Shown piece by piece: positions 40,450 through 49,095 of a DNA stretch of 64,000 nt (position 1 is the stretch's first letter; each line of letters begins with the position of its first letter). The position numbers were made by a program, and so were the translations under genes. The notes under the pieces are model-generated. The model was given only the letters and a program-made list of their open reading frames with translations. It was not told the origin of the DNA and ran no database searches. The stretch spans positions 2,560,462 through 2,624,461 of the forward strand of contig NZ_CP017448.1 of NCBI RefSeq assembly GCF_001753165.1, given 5' to 3'. This DNA comes from Acidihalobacter aeolianus (GTDB lineage: Bacteria > Pseudomonadota > Gammaproteobacteria > DSM-5130 > Acidihalobacteraceae).

Positions 40450-42153
40450 GTAACTACTCAGCTAATTCTCAGAGATCGCCAGAGCAAAAGCCGGTAGCTT
40501 GCGATCGAATACTAGGCGCAACGCCTCCGAAGCCGTGACCCCCTGCTTTCGGCAGGTCGATAGATATCCCCGTATGCGGCAAAACATCGCGGCACCCTCC
40601 AGGCTGCGGAAGCAGCCGGAGATCTTCTGCTGCACTTTGGTCATACGGATATCGTTCTCCGCCTGATTGTTCGTGAACGGCACATTGACGTCCACCATGA
40701 AACGCAGCACATCGTCTTCATAGGCCATCAGACGCTCCAGCAGATTGCGGGCCTTGCTCCGCTTGATCCGCCCCCGAGGCTTGTTGTCGGGTGGTTTTTC
40801 CGGCTCAGGGCATTCCAGTTGCCCCGCCTCGAGCACATCTCGGTAGCGCTGCCGGTAAGCATTGGCCTCGGTCAGCGGCAGGATGCCGCCAGCGTTCTCG
40901 ACGGCCTGATGAATCTCTCTGAGCAGCTTGCCCATCGCTTCCGCCCATTGTTGTCCGTCCTGCTCGAATGCTCGTTCCAGTTCGCGCAGGTGGTGGGCAT
41001 TGCACAGGGCATGGGTGCAGTCCCGATAACGGTAATAGGGTTTCCAATGGTCATGACACAGCACACCGCGGAACCGTGGCAGGATCCCGATCGCGTCCAT
41101 CGCCTCCTGGCCTCGCTTACTGTGGACCTGATAATGCGTCCAATCAGCATTGGACAGAGCATGCAGCCAATGGCGTTTGCCATCAATGTTGACCCCGGTC
41201 TCGTCGGCATGAGCGGACACGGCTTTGGCCAATGCCGTTTTGCTGATCGCCTCAAAGGCCGCCAGGCGGGTAAATGCCTCGCGATTGAAGTTCACCAGTG
41301 AACCATCGCTCAAAGGGATGCCCAACTGATCGGCAAAGTAATCCTGGATCCGCTTGTAGGGCAAGAGCTGATATTGGGACAGATAGACGGCATGGGCCTT
41401 GAGGCCGGAACCATACTGCACCTTCTTATCCACCCCTTCCGGGAATGAAGCCACAAAACGTTGGCCTGATTCATTCTCCAGGATCTGCGCCCGATACTCG
41501 GTCACGATCCGGCTGATGTCGATATCAAAAACCTGGCGAGTCTCGAAACCCGCCTCGGTATAGCAGCCTTTCGGCAAGCGACGACGATCGATCTTGAGGA
41601 CCTCGATCTCATCGGGATGCTCGACCGGGCGCAAGGTCTTGCCCACGTGCCCCGGCTGGCCACCGGAAGGTCGGCTTGAGCGCACACGCTGGCTGCGTGG
41701 CCGATTGGGATCCGATGCCGGCGGCTGACTGCTGTTGCGGCTATTGAGCCCGAGACGGTTGAGTAACACGACGAACAACATGAGCATCATCTCGATACTG
41801 GCGCGGAGTGCCGGAGATAGGTCTTTCTCCTGCTCCAGTTGCGCCCTGACCTGTGCCAGGGTGATCTCGATATCGACGCCGTCGATCCGCACGCAAGACT
41901 GCTCCAAAGAAGTAATGAAGCTATTATCTCACGGGTTTTGAAGTGCCAATTTTCTCGTTTGTAAGGCGATCTGGCGGCGTAAAATAATTGACTGACGGTG
42001 GGGCAGTGCCTCGCGTGATGTCGCAAGGAAGACTACGCCTCTGTCGCTTTCGGAGACCAATAATCGCACTCGTTACAGCGCCGCCATATTTTCAAAAAAA
42101 CTACCAAAAACCCTGTCAAGTACTTTTTGTAATTATTTTCACTGAGTAGTTAC
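40450..42153 (-). mobile_element. Complete IS66-family element (single-gene type)
   Basis: A 1704-bp element. The ends GTAACTACTCAG (40450-40461) and CTGAGTAGTTAC (42142-42153) are perfect 12-bp inverted repeats, flanked by the 8-bp duplication GTCTTTAT. It carries only the transposase gene and lacks the tnpA/tnpB accessory genes of classic IS66, as in the ISBst12 subgroup. The perfect duplication indicates a fairly recent insertion. Confidence 0.93.
40462..41907 (-). CDS. IS66-family transposase (TnpC-like)
   Basis: A 481-residue transposase. The N-terminus has a coiled region (VRAQLEQEKDLSPALRAS), then the typical NSRNSSQPPASDPNRPR segment and the zinc-finger-like part. The catalytic domain includes AVSAHADETGVNIDGKRHW, GVLCHDHWKPYY and PFTNNQAENDIRMTKVQQKI, which hold the DDE residues. 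It reads through without interruption, and the stop lies at the very end of the element, beside the inverted repeat. It seems capable of activity. Confidence 0.93.
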   Translation of the reverse strand: MEQSCVRIDGVDIEITLAQVRAQLEQEKDLSPALRASIEMMLMLFVVLLNRLGLNSRNSSQPPASDPNRPRSQRVRSSRPSGGQPGHVGKTLRPVEHPDEIEVLKIDRRRLPKGCYTEAGFETRQVFDIDISRIVTEYRAQILENESGQRFVASFPEGVDKKVQYGSGLKAHAVYLSQYQLLPYKRIQDYFADQLGIPLSDGSLVNFNREAFTRLAAFEAISKTALAKAVSAHADETGVNIDGKRHWLHALSNADWTHYQVHSKRGQEAMDAIGILPRFRGVLCHDHWKPYYRYRDCTHALCNAHHLRELERAFEQDGQQWAEAMGKLLREIHQAVENAGGILPLTEANAYRQRYRDVLEAGQLECPEPEKPPDNKPRGRIKRSKARNLLERLMAYEDDVLRFMVDVNVPFTNNQAENDIRMTKVQQKISGCFRSLEGAAMFCRIRGYLSTCRKQGVTASEALRLVFDRKLPAFALAISEN

Positions 42154-43164: not shown

Positions 43165-43857
43165 TCAGCCGGAATAACCGCCCGGCATGGGCTCCCAGAG
43201 TTCGCGCGCCTCGAACTGGGGCAGTTCCTCGGTTTCACGGTAGGCGCCCTCGCACCATTCGCGCACGTGTTCGTCGGCTAGGCAGGTGTGCACGTACTCC
43301 GCGGCCACGCCTTCCAGCGGAGTGTTGTAGACGGAAAAGCGCAGCGCGACCGGAACGTACATCGCATCGGCGATGGTGAATCCGCCGAACAACCAGGGCC
43401 CGAGCCCACCGAAGCGGGCGCGGCAGTCGGTCCATAGGCCAGTGATGCGCGCCACCTCAGCCTCGATCTCGGGGCCTGGCGAACGCCAGCGGAAACGCCC
43501 GCGCAGGTTCATCGGCAGATAAGTGCGCACGGCCTGGAAACCGGCATGCATTTCGGCGCTCACCGATCTTGCGACGGCGCGCGCCTCGGGGTCGGCGGGC
43601 CAACCGCGGCCGTCGAGCAATTGCTCCGAAACGTATTCGCAGATGGCGAGCGAGTCCCACACCGCGAGCGGACCGTGGTGCAGCACCGGCACCTTGCCGG
43701 AGGGCGACAGCCCGGCGACCCGCTCCGCGTACTCGGGCGTGTAGAGCGGCACGCGGATTTCCTCGAAGCGCAGGCCGTGGCGGCGCAGCAGCAGCCAGGG
43801 CCGCAGCGACCAGGAGGAGTAGTTCTTGTTGCCGATCACCAGCTTGAGTTCGCTCAT
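43165..43857 (-). CDS. Glutathione S-transferase family protein
   Basis: A 230-residue GST. The thioredoxin-fold N-domain begins LKLVIGNKNYSSWSLRPWL, with Ser residues in the position that activates glutathione. It has the cis-Pro in SGKVPVLHHG and VWDSLAICEYVSE. The C-domain is helical, with FGGFTIADAMYVPVALRF (N-capping box). The ATG at 43857 with GGAGG seven bases upstream is preferred over a start overlapping the previous gene. It is third in a minus-strand operon after the GNAT/C39 and ATP-grasp genes. Confidence 0.9.
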   Translation of the reverse strand: MSELKLVIGNKNYSSWSLRPWLLLRRHGLRFEEIRVPLYTPEYAERVAGLSPSGKVPVLHHGPLAVWDSLAICEYVSEQLLDGRGWPADPEARAVARSVSAEMHAGFQAVRTYLPMNLRGRFRWRSPGPEIEAEVARITGLWTDCRARFGGLGPWLFGGFTIADAMYVPVALRFSVYNTPLEGVAAEYVHTCLADEHVREWCEGAYRETEELPQFEARELWEPMPGGYSG

Positions 43858-43877
43858 CGTCGCACCTCCGCGGCGGC

Positions 43878-45350
43878 TCATACCGCCCGCATTTCGATCC
43901 GGCGCACGAATTCCTCCATCAGGGTGCGGTACAGCGCTTCGCCCATGATGTCGTCCTCGACACCGGCGTCGATGTTGGGGTTGTCGTTAACCTCGATGAC
44001 CACGACCTTGTCGCCGGCCTGCTTGAGGTCCACCCCATAGAGCCCGTCGCCGAGCAGCTTAGCCGCACGCAACGCGGTCTTGACCACCTTGGCGGGCGCT
44101 TCATCCACCGGCCAGGTCTTGAAGCCGCCGGCCTGGGCGTTGCCGCCCTTGTCGTCGTGCTTGAGGATCTGCCAGTGCTTCTTGGACATGAAATACTGGC
44201 ACACGAACAGCGGCTTGTTGTTGAGGATGCCCACGCGCCAGTCGAACTCGGTGTACATGAATTCCTGCGCGAGGATCAGGTCCGAGTCCTTGAAGAACTG
44301 TCCGGCGAGTCGCTTGAGTTCGGCGGCGTTGTTGGCCTTGACCACGCCGCGCGAGAACGAACCGTCGGGAATCTTGAGCACCATCGGGTAGCCCAGTTCG
44401 GCCTCGAGTTCGTCGACGTTGTCGCGGCTGACGATGATCGTGCGCGGACGCGGCACGCGGTGCGCCTTGAGCAGCTCGGCAAGATACACCTTATTGGTGC
44501 AGCGCAGGATCGAGTCGGGGTCGTCGATCACCACCATGCCCTCGCTCTCGGCCTTCTTGGCGAACTGGTAGGTGTAGTGGTCGATGCTGGTGGTCTCGCG
44601 GATGAACAGCGCGTCGTACTCGGCAAGCCGGCCGTAGTCGCGCCGCGTGATCAGCTCGACATCCACGCCCACCGCCTTGCCGGCGCGCACCATGTGCGCC
44701 AGCGCGCCGCGGTTGGAGGGCGGCAGCTTTTCGTCCGGGTTGTGCAGGATGGCGAGGTCGTAGCGGTAGCGCGTGCGGCTGCGCGGCTTGCGCCAGCGGC
44801 GCGCCAGGAACACGCCGAGCGCCTCGGCGAAGGCGGCCTGCTGTTCCGCGGTGAGCGCCTGCGGGTGCAGCGCCTGGATCGCGCTGATGCGCCATTCGCC
44901 CTGACGGCGCAGCTCCACGCGCAGCACGGGGCAGCGGAAGGCGTCGAAGATCTGCCGCGCGAGGTCCTGCCACTCCGGCGAGGAGGTCTGCCCGAAATAG
45001 AGCATCAGCTCCAGGCCGTTGACGGTGACGTCCTGCCGCGTGCGGCCCACGGTCTTGCGCGCGAGGCGCTCCAGGTCCTCGGTGTCGAGGGTGTAGATCG
45101 CCTTGCGGCTGAGATCCTGGATGGTACGCACGCTCGGGATCACGCGGTGCCCGCGCGCCTCGGCGAGCAGCGAGGTGTAGTAGCCGACGCTGAGATAGCG
45201 GTAGCTGCGCGCGAGGTTGATGACCTGCAGGTCGTCGTCCATGCCCTCCGCCGCACCGCTGAGATAGTCGCGCACGGTGACGACCTTGAGTGCCGGATAG
45301 ATGTCCTTCCAGTCCGACAGATTTTCCACCACCACTAACGGTTCAGGCAT
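43878..45350 (-). CDS. RimK-type ATP-grasp amide ligase with RLAN N-terminal domain
   Basis: A 490-residue protein. The first ~160 residues match the RimK-like ATP-grasp N-terminal (RLAN) domain (LVVVENLSDWKDIYPALKVV, SYRYLSVGYYTSLLAEARGH). Residues ~200-480 are an ATP-grasp ligase (VPRPRTIIVSRDNVDELEAE, the Lys of MVLKIPDGSFSRGVVK, LILAQEFMYTEFDWRVGILN, VVVIEVNDNPNIDAGVED). RimK-type enzymes join amino acids, often glutamate, to proteins or peptides using ATP. It overlaps the upstream GNAT/C39 gene by eight bases. Such RLAN-RimK genes with GNAT and peptidase partners have been described as amidoligase systems of unknown product. Confidence 0.9.
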   Translation of the reverse strand: MPEPLVVVENLSDWKDIYPALKVVTVRDYLSGAAEGMDDDLQVINLARSYRYLSVGYYTSLLAEARGHRVIPSVRTIQDLSRKAIYTLDTEDLERLARKTVGRTRQDVTVNGLELMLYFGQTSSPEWQDLARQIFDAFRCPVLRVELRRQGEWRISAIQALHPQALTAEQQAAFAEALGVFLARRWRKPRSRTRYRYDLAILHNPDEKLPPSNRGALAHMVRAGKAVGVDVELITRRDYGRLAEYDALFIRETTSIDHYTYQFAKKAESEGMVVIDDPDSILRCTNKVYLAELLKAHRVPRPRTIIVSRDNVDELEAELGYPMVLKIPDGSFSRGVVKANNAAELKRLAGQFFKDSDLILAQEFMYTEFDWRVGILNNKPLFVCQYFMSKKHWQILKHDDKGGNAQAGGFKTWPVDEAPAKVVKTALRAAKLLGDGLYGVDLKQAGDKVVVIEVNDNPNIDAGVEDDIMGEALYRTLMEEFVRRIEMRAV

Positions 45351-46449
45351 CGGCAGCCTCCCTGCGGCTGACGATCAGCACGGCCTTGAGGCCGGCGCGT
45401 CCGTAACGGGTCATGTGTTCGAACTCCTTCTGCAAAATCGGCATGTTGATGGAATCCAGGGCCGTTTCGCCCTGTTCGTAATCGATGAAGGGATCGTGGA
45501 CGTAGACGAAGCGTTCGTCGAAACCTGTGACCACGACCCAGTGCGGAAATTTCTCGCCGTAGATCTGGTACGAGCTGATCAGCACCACCGGAATCCCGCC
45601 GGCCTCGAAGCGCGCCTTGAGATCGGCGACGCGCAGCGGCGTGAAGTGGATCGGCACGTCGTGCGCCTCAAGCTCGGCCAGGAAATCCTCCTGTACCAGG
45701 CGCATGACCTCCTTCTTGACTTCGCTGCGCACAGAATCGACCAGGAAGTTGGCCCCGTCGCTGACGAATATCTCGACGTCGAAGCCACGGTGCCAGGCCG
45801 ACAGGCCGAGCCCGAAGGGCCCGCAGCCGCCGTGCCCCGAGGTCATGAAGATGATGGTCGCCTCGCGCCAGATGCGCAGCTCCAGCGTGCGGTTCATCGG
45901 CTGCTCCGGCTGCAGCGCGCTCATCGCCATCATCAGCGAGGAAGGGCCGCAGGTGAAGTCGAGCGTCTGCTCGTAGTAGGGCACGCGAACCTGCTCCGCC
46001 CGGAGATGCGGCGCCAGCGACTTCTCGAAGCGCAGCGCCTCCATGTGGTCCTCGTAGTAGTCCGGCACCTGGTCGAACTGGCGATAGCCGAGCGAGCGGA
46101 ACAGCGCCAGAGAGGCGGTGTTGTCGCGGCGGATCTCCAGCCGCAGGGTGATGCGCCCCTCCGCCTTGGCGCGGGCCTCGGCCGCCTCCACCAGGGCGCG
46201 GCCGACGCCCTGCCCGCGCAGCGCGGCGCTGACCGCGATCGAGTAGATACGCGCCAGCGAGGTGCCGCGACTATAGAGCGTAAGCACATAGGCCTCGACC
46301 CGGCCGTCGTGCGCGTGCACCAGCACGTCCGAGTGCGCACGCGTGATCATGTAACGGAACTGGCGACGGCTCAGGCGGTCGGTCTGGAAGCAGGTTTCCT
46401 CCAGACGCAGCAGGTCGTCGACATCGTCCAGGGTGGCGGGGCGGATCAT
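45343..46449 (-). CDS. GNAT acetyltransferase fused to C39-like peptidase (DUF3335)
   Basis: A 368-residue two-domain protein. Residues 1-~140 are a GNAT acyltransferase of RimI type (IRPATLDDVDDLLRLEETCF; acyl-CoA loop AALRGQGVGRALVEAAEARA). Residues ~160-365 are a papain-fold C39-like peptidase. Its nucleophile Cys is in EQTLDFTCGPSSLMMAMS, His in KFPHWVVVTGFDE and Asp/Asn in VYVHDPFID. No signal peptide is present. It is the first gene of the operon with RimK-type ligase and GST, and the neighbouring argE gene is divergent. The pair may make and cut an amide-linked peptide, with the GNAT adding an acyl cap (inference). Confidence 0.9.
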   Translation of the reverse strand: MIRPATLDDVDDLLRLEETCFQTDRLSRRQFRYMITRAHSDVLVHAHDGRVEAYVLTLYSRGTSLARIYSIAVSAALRGQGVGRALVEAAEARAKAEGRITLRLEIRRDNTASLALFRSLGYRQFDQVPDYYEDHMEALRFEKSLAPHLRAEQVRVPYYEQTLDFTCGPSSLMMAMSALQPEQPMNRTLELRIWREATIIFMTSGHGGCGPFGLGLSAWHRGFDVEIFVSDGANFLVDSVRSEVKKEVMRLVQEDFLAELEAHDVPIHFTPLRVADLKARFEAGGIPVVLISSYQIYGEKFPHWVVVTGFDERFVYVHDPFIDYEQGETALDSINMPILQKEFEHMTRYGRAGLKAVLIVSRREAADA

Positions 46450-46560: not shown

Positions 46561-47709
46561 ATGCCCGCGCCACCGCTCGAACAGATGCTCGCCGAACTCA
46601 TCGCCACCCCGTCGGTGAGCAGCGTCTCGCCCGCCTTCGACAGCGGTAACCTCGCTCTGGTGGAAAAACTCGCCGGCTGGCTGGAGGACGCCGGCTTCCG
46701 GGTCGAGATCATTCCACTGGAACATTTTCCGGACAAGGCCAACCTGATCGCCACCCTCGGCGAGGGCGAGGGCGGGCTCGTGCTCTCCGGGCACACCGAC
46801 ACCGTGCCCTTCGACGACGGCCTGTGGACCCACGATCCGTTCCGCCTGACCGCGGCCGACGGCCGCTTCTACGGCCTCGGCACCGCGGACATGAAGAGCT
46901 TTCTCGCGCTCGCCATCGAGGCCGCACGCGGGCTCGACCCGGCCCGGCTGGAGCATCCGCTGATCATCGTCGGCACCGCCGACGAGGAAAGCAGCATGGA
47001 CGGCGCACGCATGCTCACCCGCCTGGGCCGGCCGCGCGCGCGCTACTGCGTGATCGGCGAGCCGACCGACCTGCGTCCGGTGCGCATGCACAAGGGCATC
47101 ATCATGGAGGCGGTGCGCGTGACCGGGCACAGCGGCCATTCCAGCGACCCGGATCGCGGCCGCAATGCCCTCGAGGGCATGCACCACGTGATGGGCGAAC
47201 TGCTCGCTTGGCGCGACGAACTGCGCCGCCAGCACCACCCCGCCTTCGCCGTGCCCTACCCCACGCTCAACCTCGGCCATGTACACGGCGGCGACAACCC
47301 CAACCGCATCTGCGCGAGCTGCGAGCTGCATTTCGACCTGCGCCCGCTGCCCGGCATGCACATCGAGGCGCTGCGCGAGGAACTGCACCACCGCGTCGGC
47401 CGAGCGCTGGAGGGCCGTGGCCTCGGCTTCGAAACCCACCCACTGTTCTTTGGCATCGAGGCTTTCGAGACCCCCGCCGACGCCGCCCTGGTCACGACCC
47501 TGGTCGAACTCAGCGGCCACCCTGCTCAGGCTGTTGCCTTCGGCACCGAGGCGCCTTTCTTCCGCGACCTCGGCATCGAAACCGTGGTCATCGGCCCCGG
47601 CAGCATCGATCAGGCGCACCAGCCGGACGAATACATCGAACAGGCCGCGCTGGGACAGACAGTCGACATGCTGCGCGAACTGATCCGACGCCTGTGCCTC
47701 GCACACTGA
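46561..47709 (+). CDS. argE: Acetylornithine deacetylase
   Basis: A 382-residue M20 metallopeptidase-fold enzyme of arginine synthesis, removing acetate from N-acetylornithine. Motifs in order: LVLSGHTDTVPFDD (metal His and Asp), GLGTADMKSFLALA, IIVGTADEESSMDGARML (catalytic Glu pair), VIGEPTDLRPVRMHKG and the dimer-domain VTGHSGHSSDPDRG. The late GTEAPFFRDLGIETVVIGPG holds the last metal ligand. The in-frame upstream extension is not protein-like, and the ATG at 46561 begins MPAPPLEQMLAELIATPSVS, as in the family. It is followed by argA. Confidence 0.95.
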   Translation: MPAPPLEQMLAELIATPSVSSVSPAFDSGNLALVEKLAGWLEDAGFRVEIIPLEHFPDKANLIATLGEGEGGLVLSGHTDTVPFDDGLWTHDPFRLTAADGRFYGLGTADMKSFLALAIEAARGLDPARLEHPLIIVGTADEESSMDGARMLTRLGRPRARYCVIGEPTDLRPVRMHKGIIMEAVRVTGHSGHSSDPDRGRNALEGMHHVMGELLAWRDELRRQHHPAFAVPYPTLNLGHVHGGDNPNRICASCELHFDLRPLPGMHIEALREELHHRVGRALEGRGLGFETHPLFFGIEAFETPADAALVTTLVELSGHPAQAVAFGTEAPFFRDLGIETVVIGPGSIDQAHQPDEYIEQAALGQTVDMLRELIRRLCLAH

Positions 47710-47769: not shown

Positions 47770-49095
47770 GTGAGCAAGACCGCAGCCCACAATCCGAACA
47801 TCGCCTGGTTCCGCCAGGCCGCGCCGTACATCCACGCACACCGTGGCCGCACCTTCGTCGTCGCCTTCGGCGGCGAGGCCATCGCGGACACAACCTTCCC
47901 CGATCTGGTGCACGACATCGCCCTGCTCGCCAGCCTGGGCGTGCGCGTGGTGCTGGTGCACGGTGCCCGCCCGCAGATCGAGGCACGACTGAAGGCGGCC
48001 GGCCGGGAACTGCATTACGCAAACGGACTGCGCATCACCGACGCGGCCGCGATGAGCTCGGTGATCGCGGGCATCGCGGACGCCCGCGCCGAGGTCGAGG
48101 CGCGCCTGTCCATGAGCATCGCCGACACGCCGATGTCCGGCATGCGCCTGACCGTGGTCGGCGGCAATCACGTGATCGCCAAGCCGGTCGGCGTGCGCGA
48201 CGGCATCGACTACCAGCACACCGGCGAGGTGCGCCGCGTCGAGACCGGCGCCATCCGCCCGCATCTCGATCTGGGCCATCTGGTGCTGATTTCCCCGCGC
48301 GGCTATTCGCCCACCGGGGAGATGTTCAACCTCAGCGCGGCCGAGGTCGCGACCGCCGTGGCCTGCGCGCTGCGCGCCGACAAGCTCATTTTCCTGGAGG
48401 AAACCACGGGTCTGCGCGACGCACGCCGGCGTCCGCTGCGCCAGATCGGCCTCGCCGAAGCACAGGCCCTGCTCGGCGGCAGGCGGCGGCTGACCGACGA
48501 GACGCGCCGGCATCTGCACGGTGCCATCGACGCCTGCCTGAACGGCGTACGGCGCGTGCATCTGGTCGACCGGCGCATCGACGGCGCGCTACTGCTCGAG
48601 CTTTACACCCGCGACGGCGTCGGCACCCTGATCAGCACCGGCGGCTACGAGCACCTGCGCCCGGCAATGATCGACGACGTCGCCGGCATCCTCTCGCTGA
48701 TCGCCCCGCTGGAGGCGGAGGGCGTGCTGGTGCGTCGCTCGCGCGAACAGCTCGAACTCGAGATCGGCCATTTCAGCGTGATCGAACGCGACGGACTCAT
48801 CATCGCGTGCGCCGCGCTCTACGGTTTCGCCGACGAAGACGTCGGCGAGCTGGCCTGCCTCGTGGTGCACCCGGACTACCGCCATCAGGGCCATGGCGAC
48901 ACCCTGCTCGCGCACATCGAGGAGCGCGCACGCCATCGGGGCCTGCAACGCCTGTTCGTGCTCACCACGCGCACCGCCCACTGGTTCCGTGAACGCGGGT
49001 TCGTGCCCGGGCAGATCGATCAGCTTCCGGTGGCCCGCCGAGCGCTCTACAACTACCAACGCAACTCGCGGATATTCCTCAAGACGCTCGACTGA
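47770..49095 (+). CDS. argA: N-acetylglutamate synthase
   Basis: A 441-residue ArgA with an amino-acid-kinase domain (RQAAPYIHAHRGRTFVVAFG; VRVVLVHGARPQIEARL; YALTP-like NGLRITDAAAMSSV) and a C-terminal GNAT domain (GELACLVVHPDYRHQGHGDTLLAHIEERA), the full length of proteobacterial ArgA. It catalyses the first committed step of arginine synthesis, from glutamate and acetyl-CoA, and is usually inhibited by arginine. The start is GTG, with AGGA ~9 bases upstream, 60 bases after argE. Confidence 0.96.
   Translation: MSKTAAHNPNIAWFRQAAPYIHAHRGRTFVVAFGGEAIADTTFPDLVHDIALLASLGVRVVLVHGARPQIEARLKAAGRELHYANGLRITDAAAMSSVIAGIADARAEVEARLSMSIADTPMSGMRLTVVGGNHVIAKPVGVRDGIDYQHTGEVRRVETGAIRPHLDLGHLVLISPRGYSPTGEMFNLSAAEVATAVACALRADKLIFLEETTGLRDARRRPLRQIGLAEAQALLGGRRRLTDETRRHLHGAIDACLNGVRRVHLVDRRIDGALLLELYTRDGVGTLISTGGYEHLRPAMIDDVAGILSLIAPLEAEGVLVRRSREQLELEIGHFSVIERDGLIIACAALYGFADEDVGELACLVVHPDYRHQGHGDTLLAHIEERARHRGLQRLFVLTTRTAHWFRERGFVPGQIDQLPVARRALYNYQRNSRIFLKTLD

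Follow-up and report, generated by a model that had tools for sequence, protein, structure and literature searches.

Gene content of the locus

The window, meaning the whole analyzed stretch of 64,000 nucleotides from Acidihalobacter aeolianus (contig NZ_CP017448.1), had been reported in a preliminary description to carry an operon of three genes, for a GNAT/C39-peptidase fusion, a RimK-type ligase and a GST. All three open reading frames were present on the minus strand at the coordinates given below, and their domains were confirmed by Pfam. The first gene (45343..46449, open reading frame list) encodes a protein of 368 aa in which Acetyltransf_1 and DUF3335 ("Peptidase_C39 like") were found together. 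Its GNAT domain, of the N-alpha-acetyltransferase (Ard1/RimI) type, spans residues 1-150 (46000..46449, minus strand; PF00583, 1.3e-14), and the DUF3335 domain, a predicted C39-like papain-fold cysteine peptidase, residues 156-360 (45370..45984, minus strand; PF11814, 2.6e-86; PF13529, 3.4e-8).

The end of this gene overlaps by 8 bp the start of the second gene (43878..45350, minus strand, open reading frame list), which encodes a ligase of 490 aa. RLAN (PF14401, 3.4e-50) and RimK (PF08443, 2.5e-7) were both detected above cut-off in this one protein. The RLAN domain covers residues ~1-195 (44766..45350, minus strand), and the RimK/LysX-type pre-ATP-grasp and ATP-grasp domains, supported by the AF2 model and conserved residues, cover residues 197-487 (43890..44762, minus strand).

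The third gene, encoding a GST (GST_N_2, 6e-14), was first listed as an open reading frame of 238 aa at 43881-43165 on the minus strand. An inner ATG at 43857 is preceded by a GGAGGT-like site, and the same start is used in a congener; the true start is therefore probably 43857, ~20 bp past the ligase stop, which places the gene at 43165..43857 and makes its apparent overlap with the ligase probably not real. An open reading frame resembling, by eye, an IS66-type transposase lies ~1.3 kb past the GST gene (40462-41907, minus strand).

Upstream of the GNAT-C39 gene, and divergent from the operon, lie argE (acetylornithine deacetylase; 46561..47709, plus strand; PRK05111, 542.7 bits, cut-off 460), placed head-to-head with it, and then argA (N-acetylglutamate synthase; 47770..49095, plus strand; 635 bits, cut-off 344). 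This argE is the only one in the genome that scored above the curated ArgE cut-off. Between argE and the operon, a scan for a sigma-70 promoter gave no match, and no ArgR box was seen by eye.

Co-occurrence and gene architectures

Co-occurrence was determined in 369 genomes of the window's class, with strong DUF3335 matches being counted. RLAN was present in 81 genomes, about a fifth of the sample, and strong DUF3335 matches in 57, of which 56 also carried RLAN (Fisher p 3e-45). The two genes were less than 4 kb apart in 53 of these 56 genomes and on different contigs in the remaining three. The RLAN ligase and the GNAT-C39 protein are therefore a near-obligate pair and a real two-gene unit. 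Pairwise distances of the two core proteins correlated across 62 loci with r 0.77, a value that partly reflects the common descent of the genomes. A bacterial genome scan yielded 59 loci, which their record titles place mainly in the Alpha-, Beta- and Gammaproteobacteria, and many more were obtained from genome searches.

Architectures were counted in those lineage groups, 83 in number, for which 9 kb of sequence or more was available, the grouping being our own and approximate. Type A, the GNAT-C39 fusion with the ligase, was found in 58 groups. In type A' (10 groups), a GNAT without C39 accompanied the ligase; since these cases were scattered over the ligase tree, the loss or separation of C39 happened repeatedly. 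Type B (13 groups) consisted of a stand-alone C39-like gene, the ligase, a GCS2 ligase and an N-formylglutamate amidohydrolase. It formed a single clade with support 1.0, in which the GNAT had been replaced by the last two genes. In the two remaining groups, no partner was within reach of the ligase.

Three individual loci were also recorded. In genome G003, of the same family as the window, the locus (L098, 5623-7243) was decayed: the start of the GNAT continued directly into what is left of RLAN, a C39 domain was not detected, and the RimK part was split into three open reading frames. The whole set seems dispensable in that genome. A Pseudomonas aeruginosa plasmid record (NZ_CP133752.1; L174, 6902-8491) carried an RLAN-RimK ligase (54% identity) in the vicinity of ggt and a glutamate/aspartate transporter; neither a GNAT nor a C39 was encoded within 7 kb of it. 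A type B operon with the ligase, GCS2 and N-formylglutamate amidohydrolase was found in Legionella adelaidensis (NZ_LR134436.1; L175, 41-3232), on a 9 kb record named plasmid 27 whose remaining genes (fur, dapF, bamE) look chromosomal.

The preliminary description had made conservation of the three-gene set a check on its proposal, with missing co-occurrence across genomes as grounds for rejection. Co-occurrence was seen for the core pair, which is widely linked and whose domains were found together in 56 of 57 genomes, but was lacking for GST. Adjacency of the GST gene to the core was limited to the window and two congeners, that is, to three species of the window's genus, where the gene lies ~20-30 bp 3' of the ligase on the same strand. 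It was missing from all other loci, was unlinked to the core in genomes G004 and G018, and was present without RLAN in G005. GST was accordingly dropped as a third member and is regarded as a genus-level bystander outside the RLAN/GNAT-C39 system. The close, same-strand spacing in the three congeneric species is what would be expected if GST functioned as a third component and the product were linked to glutathione; given the distribution described above, we consider this extremely improbable, and as a general feature it is already largely refuted. The glutathione link suggested previously was not supported, because the linkage is confined to the genus.

Active-site residues and predicted folds

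Confident AlphaFold models were obtained, with a mean pLDDT of 90.6 for the GNAT-C39 protein and 85.9 for the ligase. The modeled ligase residues 197-487 matched LysX/ArgX (5k2m, Z 27.8) and RimK (7qyr, Z 27.1), and the RimK/LysX/ArgX fold was recovered overall with Z 27.8-25.9 and rmsd 2.2-3.3 over 260-272 residues. Scores against curated models of individual enzymes were all below cut-off: 32.6 versus 331 for the RimK equivalog NF007764, 82.8 versus 143.4 for TIGR00768, and 86.4 versus 275.6 bits for LysX_arch. The model of the NAGGN synthetase (TIGR03103) reached 21.8 bits against a cut-off of 569, for the GNAT part only.

Ligase residues K326, R251, R372, D441, E453 and N455 were retained in 97% or more of the 128 sequences compared. 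In Pseudomonas RimK, R64, R189 and N262 contact polyglutamate (PMC10092738), and these residues align with R251, R372 and N455, respectively. In the RLAN ligase alignment, no conserved equivalents were found for the RimK polyglutamate-site residues S7, R8 and S68, so the acceptor side of the RLAN ligase probably differs from that of RimK; the N-terminal stretch aligned unreliably with the genome's own RimK, which makes the S7/R8/S14 equivalents uncertain.

The predicted C39 active site of the window protein consists of Gln161, Cys167, His303 and Asp319, the Gln/Cys/His/Asp set of C39-like cysteine peptidases. Q161, C167 and H303 were found in all 98 type A and all 14 type B sequences, and D319 in 96 and 14 of them, respectively (110 of 112 together). 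Inactive key residues, which the preliminary description had named as grounds for rejecting its proposal, were thus not encountered, the residues being intact in 98 C39-like and 128 ligase sequences. An SGHGGC motif containing His206 and Cys209 (~45823-45834) was nearly invariant in type A and missing in type B; these two residues form a possible extra catalytic or metal site. The domain is fused to a GNAT instead of the ABC transporter found in C39 bacteriocin exporters. A sequence comparison of the C39 domain with the PDB revealed no significant relative, and a phage origin was discarded, as there was no match among phage records.

The YY-x-D motif of the GNAT domain was invariant in 24 sequences. 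The best PDB sequence matches included Ard1/RimI/NAA10, and the AF2 model superimposed on Ard1 (4pv6) with Z 22.8 and rmsd 1.4 over 145 residues, RimI and NAA10 also matching. By sequence and model, the domain resembles peptide N-alpha-acetyltransferases (Ard1/RimI), with a score of 70.4 bits against the RimI model, below its cut-off of 86.4.

Conserved neighbors of the core

The argE gene was head-to-head with the core, always divergent, in 13 of the 58 type A lineage groups, and argA lay within 8 kb in seven groups. By position alone, adjacency would be expected in ~0.2 groups (12 kb of ~3.3 Mb, times 58), a comparison in which the lineage groups are not fully independent, gene order being inherited. 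The argE neighborhood pointed out in the preliminary description is thus conserved and not due to chance. Besides the window's own ArgE, five neighboring M20 proteins (L144, L131, L141, L165, L164) scored as ArgE above cut-off, corresponding to four cases by group spread, while the M20 neighbor near L057 was excluded as DapE.

In nine groups, belonging to both type A and type B, a DUF155 (RMND1-like) gene was adjacent to or near the core (L163, L140, L157, L139, L128, L159, L061, L107, L108), sometimes 13-33 bp downstream. DUF155 was also enriched with RLAN, being present in 28 of 81 RLAN genomes versus 21 of 288 others (p 6e-9); it was missing from the window genome. DUF2817, related to succinylglutamate desuccinylase/aspartoacylase, stood beside the core in six groups. 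A protein of 564 aa, by eye an M14 zinc carboxypeptidase and with no NCBIfam match, was divergent beside the core in L102, L135 and L140. Core neighbors are thus often N-acyl-amino-acid or carboxypeptidase-type hydrolases (ArgE in 13 groups, DUF2817 in six, M14-like in three).

A search for conserved small open reading frames that could serve as a dedicated precursor gave only apparent shadow frames of argE and other genes, and a RiPP or small-protein substrate was accordingly rejected.

Proposed function and alternative interpretations

The interpretation we favor, tentatively and with slightly less than even confidence, is a cytoplasmic two-gene amidoligase system for a short acidic, glutamate-containing peptide. 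In it, a carboxylate would be activated by the RLAN-RimK enzyme at the expense of ATP and joined to glutamate or an amino acid resembling it, the GNAT domain would acetylate the free alpha-amino end, and the fused C39-like peptidase would re-cut the peptide as a trimmer or eraser, much as RimB acts against RimK. The divergent argE would supply or remove N-acyl-glutamate-type units, a role that DUF2817/M14 enzymes or N-formylglutamate amidohydrolase would fill in other lineages. Each enzymatic activity is predicted from family membership and conserved residues. That making, capping and cutting would act on one substrate, as previously proposed, is suggested by the families and their near-obligate linkage; this part of the earlier proposal stands at a lower strength than the set of intact ATP-grasp, GNAT and C39 domains itself. 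We likewise infer the order of the steps and that the substrate would be an acidic, glutamate-based small peptide rather than a protein tail.

This peptide reading is consistent with a ligase fold closest to the glutamate/aminoadipate ligases LysX/ArgX/RimK, with the retention of R251, R372 and N455, and with the type B swap, which brings in GCS2 and N-formylglutamate amidohydrolase, both glutamate enzymes. Further points for it are the GNAT nearest to peptide N-terminal acetyltransferases, the conserved C39 residues, the co-occurrence of the core, the hydrolase-type neighbors, the lack of a conserved precursor frame and the RimK/RimB precedent (PMC11957791). Against it, the enzymes most closely related to the ligase and the acetyltransferase work on protein termini and not on free peptides, and RimK S7/R8/S68 have no equivalent conserved residues. 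Arginine synthesis by itself would account for the genome's only true ArgE. In about ten lineage groups, the ligase has no C39 next to it, so that cutting is either not always needed or done elsewhere.

The same relatives lend themselves to an alternative in which the target is a protein: a cytoplasmic protein would receive one or more glutamates at its C terminus from the ligase, as S6 does from RimK, the GNAT would acetylate an N terminus, and C39 would remove the tag. The genome, which has a true RimI and a RimK/RimB pair, would then possess a third such system. Protein C termini are the substrates of the most closely related ligases (RimK, LysX, ArgX) and protein N termini those of the most closely related GNATs, and DUF155, related to the mitoribosome-linked RMND1/Mrx10, is enriched in RLAN genomes and often adjacent. 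This is possible but on the unlikely side, as no conserved protein partner adjoins the core, the type B replacements act on small molecules, and DUF155 is missing from the window genome. On balance, the glutamate-type neighbors and the type B swap favor a small substrate, and the nearest ligase and GNAT relatives favor a protein end. We consider it improbable that the set is a bacterial writer/eraser system for glutamylation, the third of its kind and distinct from RimK/RimB, in which a GNAT acetyl cap would gate C39 cutting and the conserved divergent argE would tie it to the arginine (N-acetylglutamate) pathway.

Two further alternatives concern the C39-like domain itself. ACTMAP, a C39-like protease, removes the acetylated residue from actin N termini; by analogy, the GNAT might acetylate an N terminus and C39 remove the acetylated residue, with the ligase acting on the other end. 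The fusion of the two domains in most lineages and the N-alpha type of the GNAT would suit this, yet each domain can do without the other, C39 occurring in type B loci that have no GNAT and GNAT in type A' loci that have no C39, and we give the idea little credence. The domain might instead be a transferase, like papain-fold acyltransferases of the BtrH type, and pass the ligated group on to an amine or thiol. A very weak match to proteins with the BtrH N-terminal domain (E 0.35) and the type-A-specific H206 and C209, which suggest extra specificity, speak for it; the match falls short of significance, the complete Gln/Cys/His/Asp set corresponds to that of C39 peptidases, there is no known acceptor, and we regard a transferase as decidedly doubtful.

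Returning to the favored peptide reading, the pattern of linkage, with its core pair, its type B swap, argE and DUF155 as neighbors and an uninvolved GST, narrows the range of candidate substrates to N-acylated peptides of the glutamate type and points to single-gene deletions for revealing the substrate. No known product of the ligase was found, though it is carried by 81 of 369 genomes of the class. The Pseudomonas gene of the system may be PA1345, for which no papers were found. A literature search for phenotypes of DUF3335 or RLAN returned a mention of the family only in PMC10318531.

Comparison with known systems

The window genome separately encodes a true RimI (133 bits) and a RimK beside a RimB-type protease, and the RLAN/GNAT-C39 set is, as judged from sequence, not a known Rim system. 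RimK/RimB, which glutamylates S6, is a ligase-protease pair in which the protease undoes the work of the ligase (PMC11957791). The window locus shares the pairing of an ATP-grasp ligase with a protease and the ligase fold (Z ~27), but its ligase carries an additional RLAN domain and stays far short of the RimK equivalog cut-off, its protease is a predicted C39-like cysteine enzyme and not a retropepsin, and a GNAT is added. LysX/ArgX, of LysW carrier-protein lysine/arginine synthesis, provide the closest ligase fold (Z 27.8) and a similar arginine-gene neighborhood, whereas the window ligase is below the LysX cut-off and the genome has the acetyl route (ArgA, ArgE). The N-acetylglutaminylglutamine amide (NAGGN) genes make an N-acetylated dipeptide with a GNAT, an ATP-grasp enzyme and a peptidase, the same set as in the window; GNAT and ATP-grasp form one protein there and are encoded by separate genes here.

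The closest counterpart is the type of RLAN/RimK-type amidoligase neighborhood predicted by Iyer et al. 2009, as cited in PMC10318531 and PMC4431377. The GNAT-DUF3335 fusion is described in PMC10318531, which cites that work, and PMC4431377 discusses the linkage of ligase genes to GNAT genes, together with capping, in other ATP-grasp families. The domains are the same, an RLAN-RimK ligase and a DUF3335 often fused to GNAT, with no difference in kind. With its RLAN-RimK fusion, adjacent GNAT-DUF3335 and intact active-site residues, the window locus is assigned by sequence to this already predicted, uncharacterized system type. To the prediction, as known through the citing papers, the present analysis adds that the core is linked to argE and DUF155, that type B is monophyletic and that GST falls outside the system.
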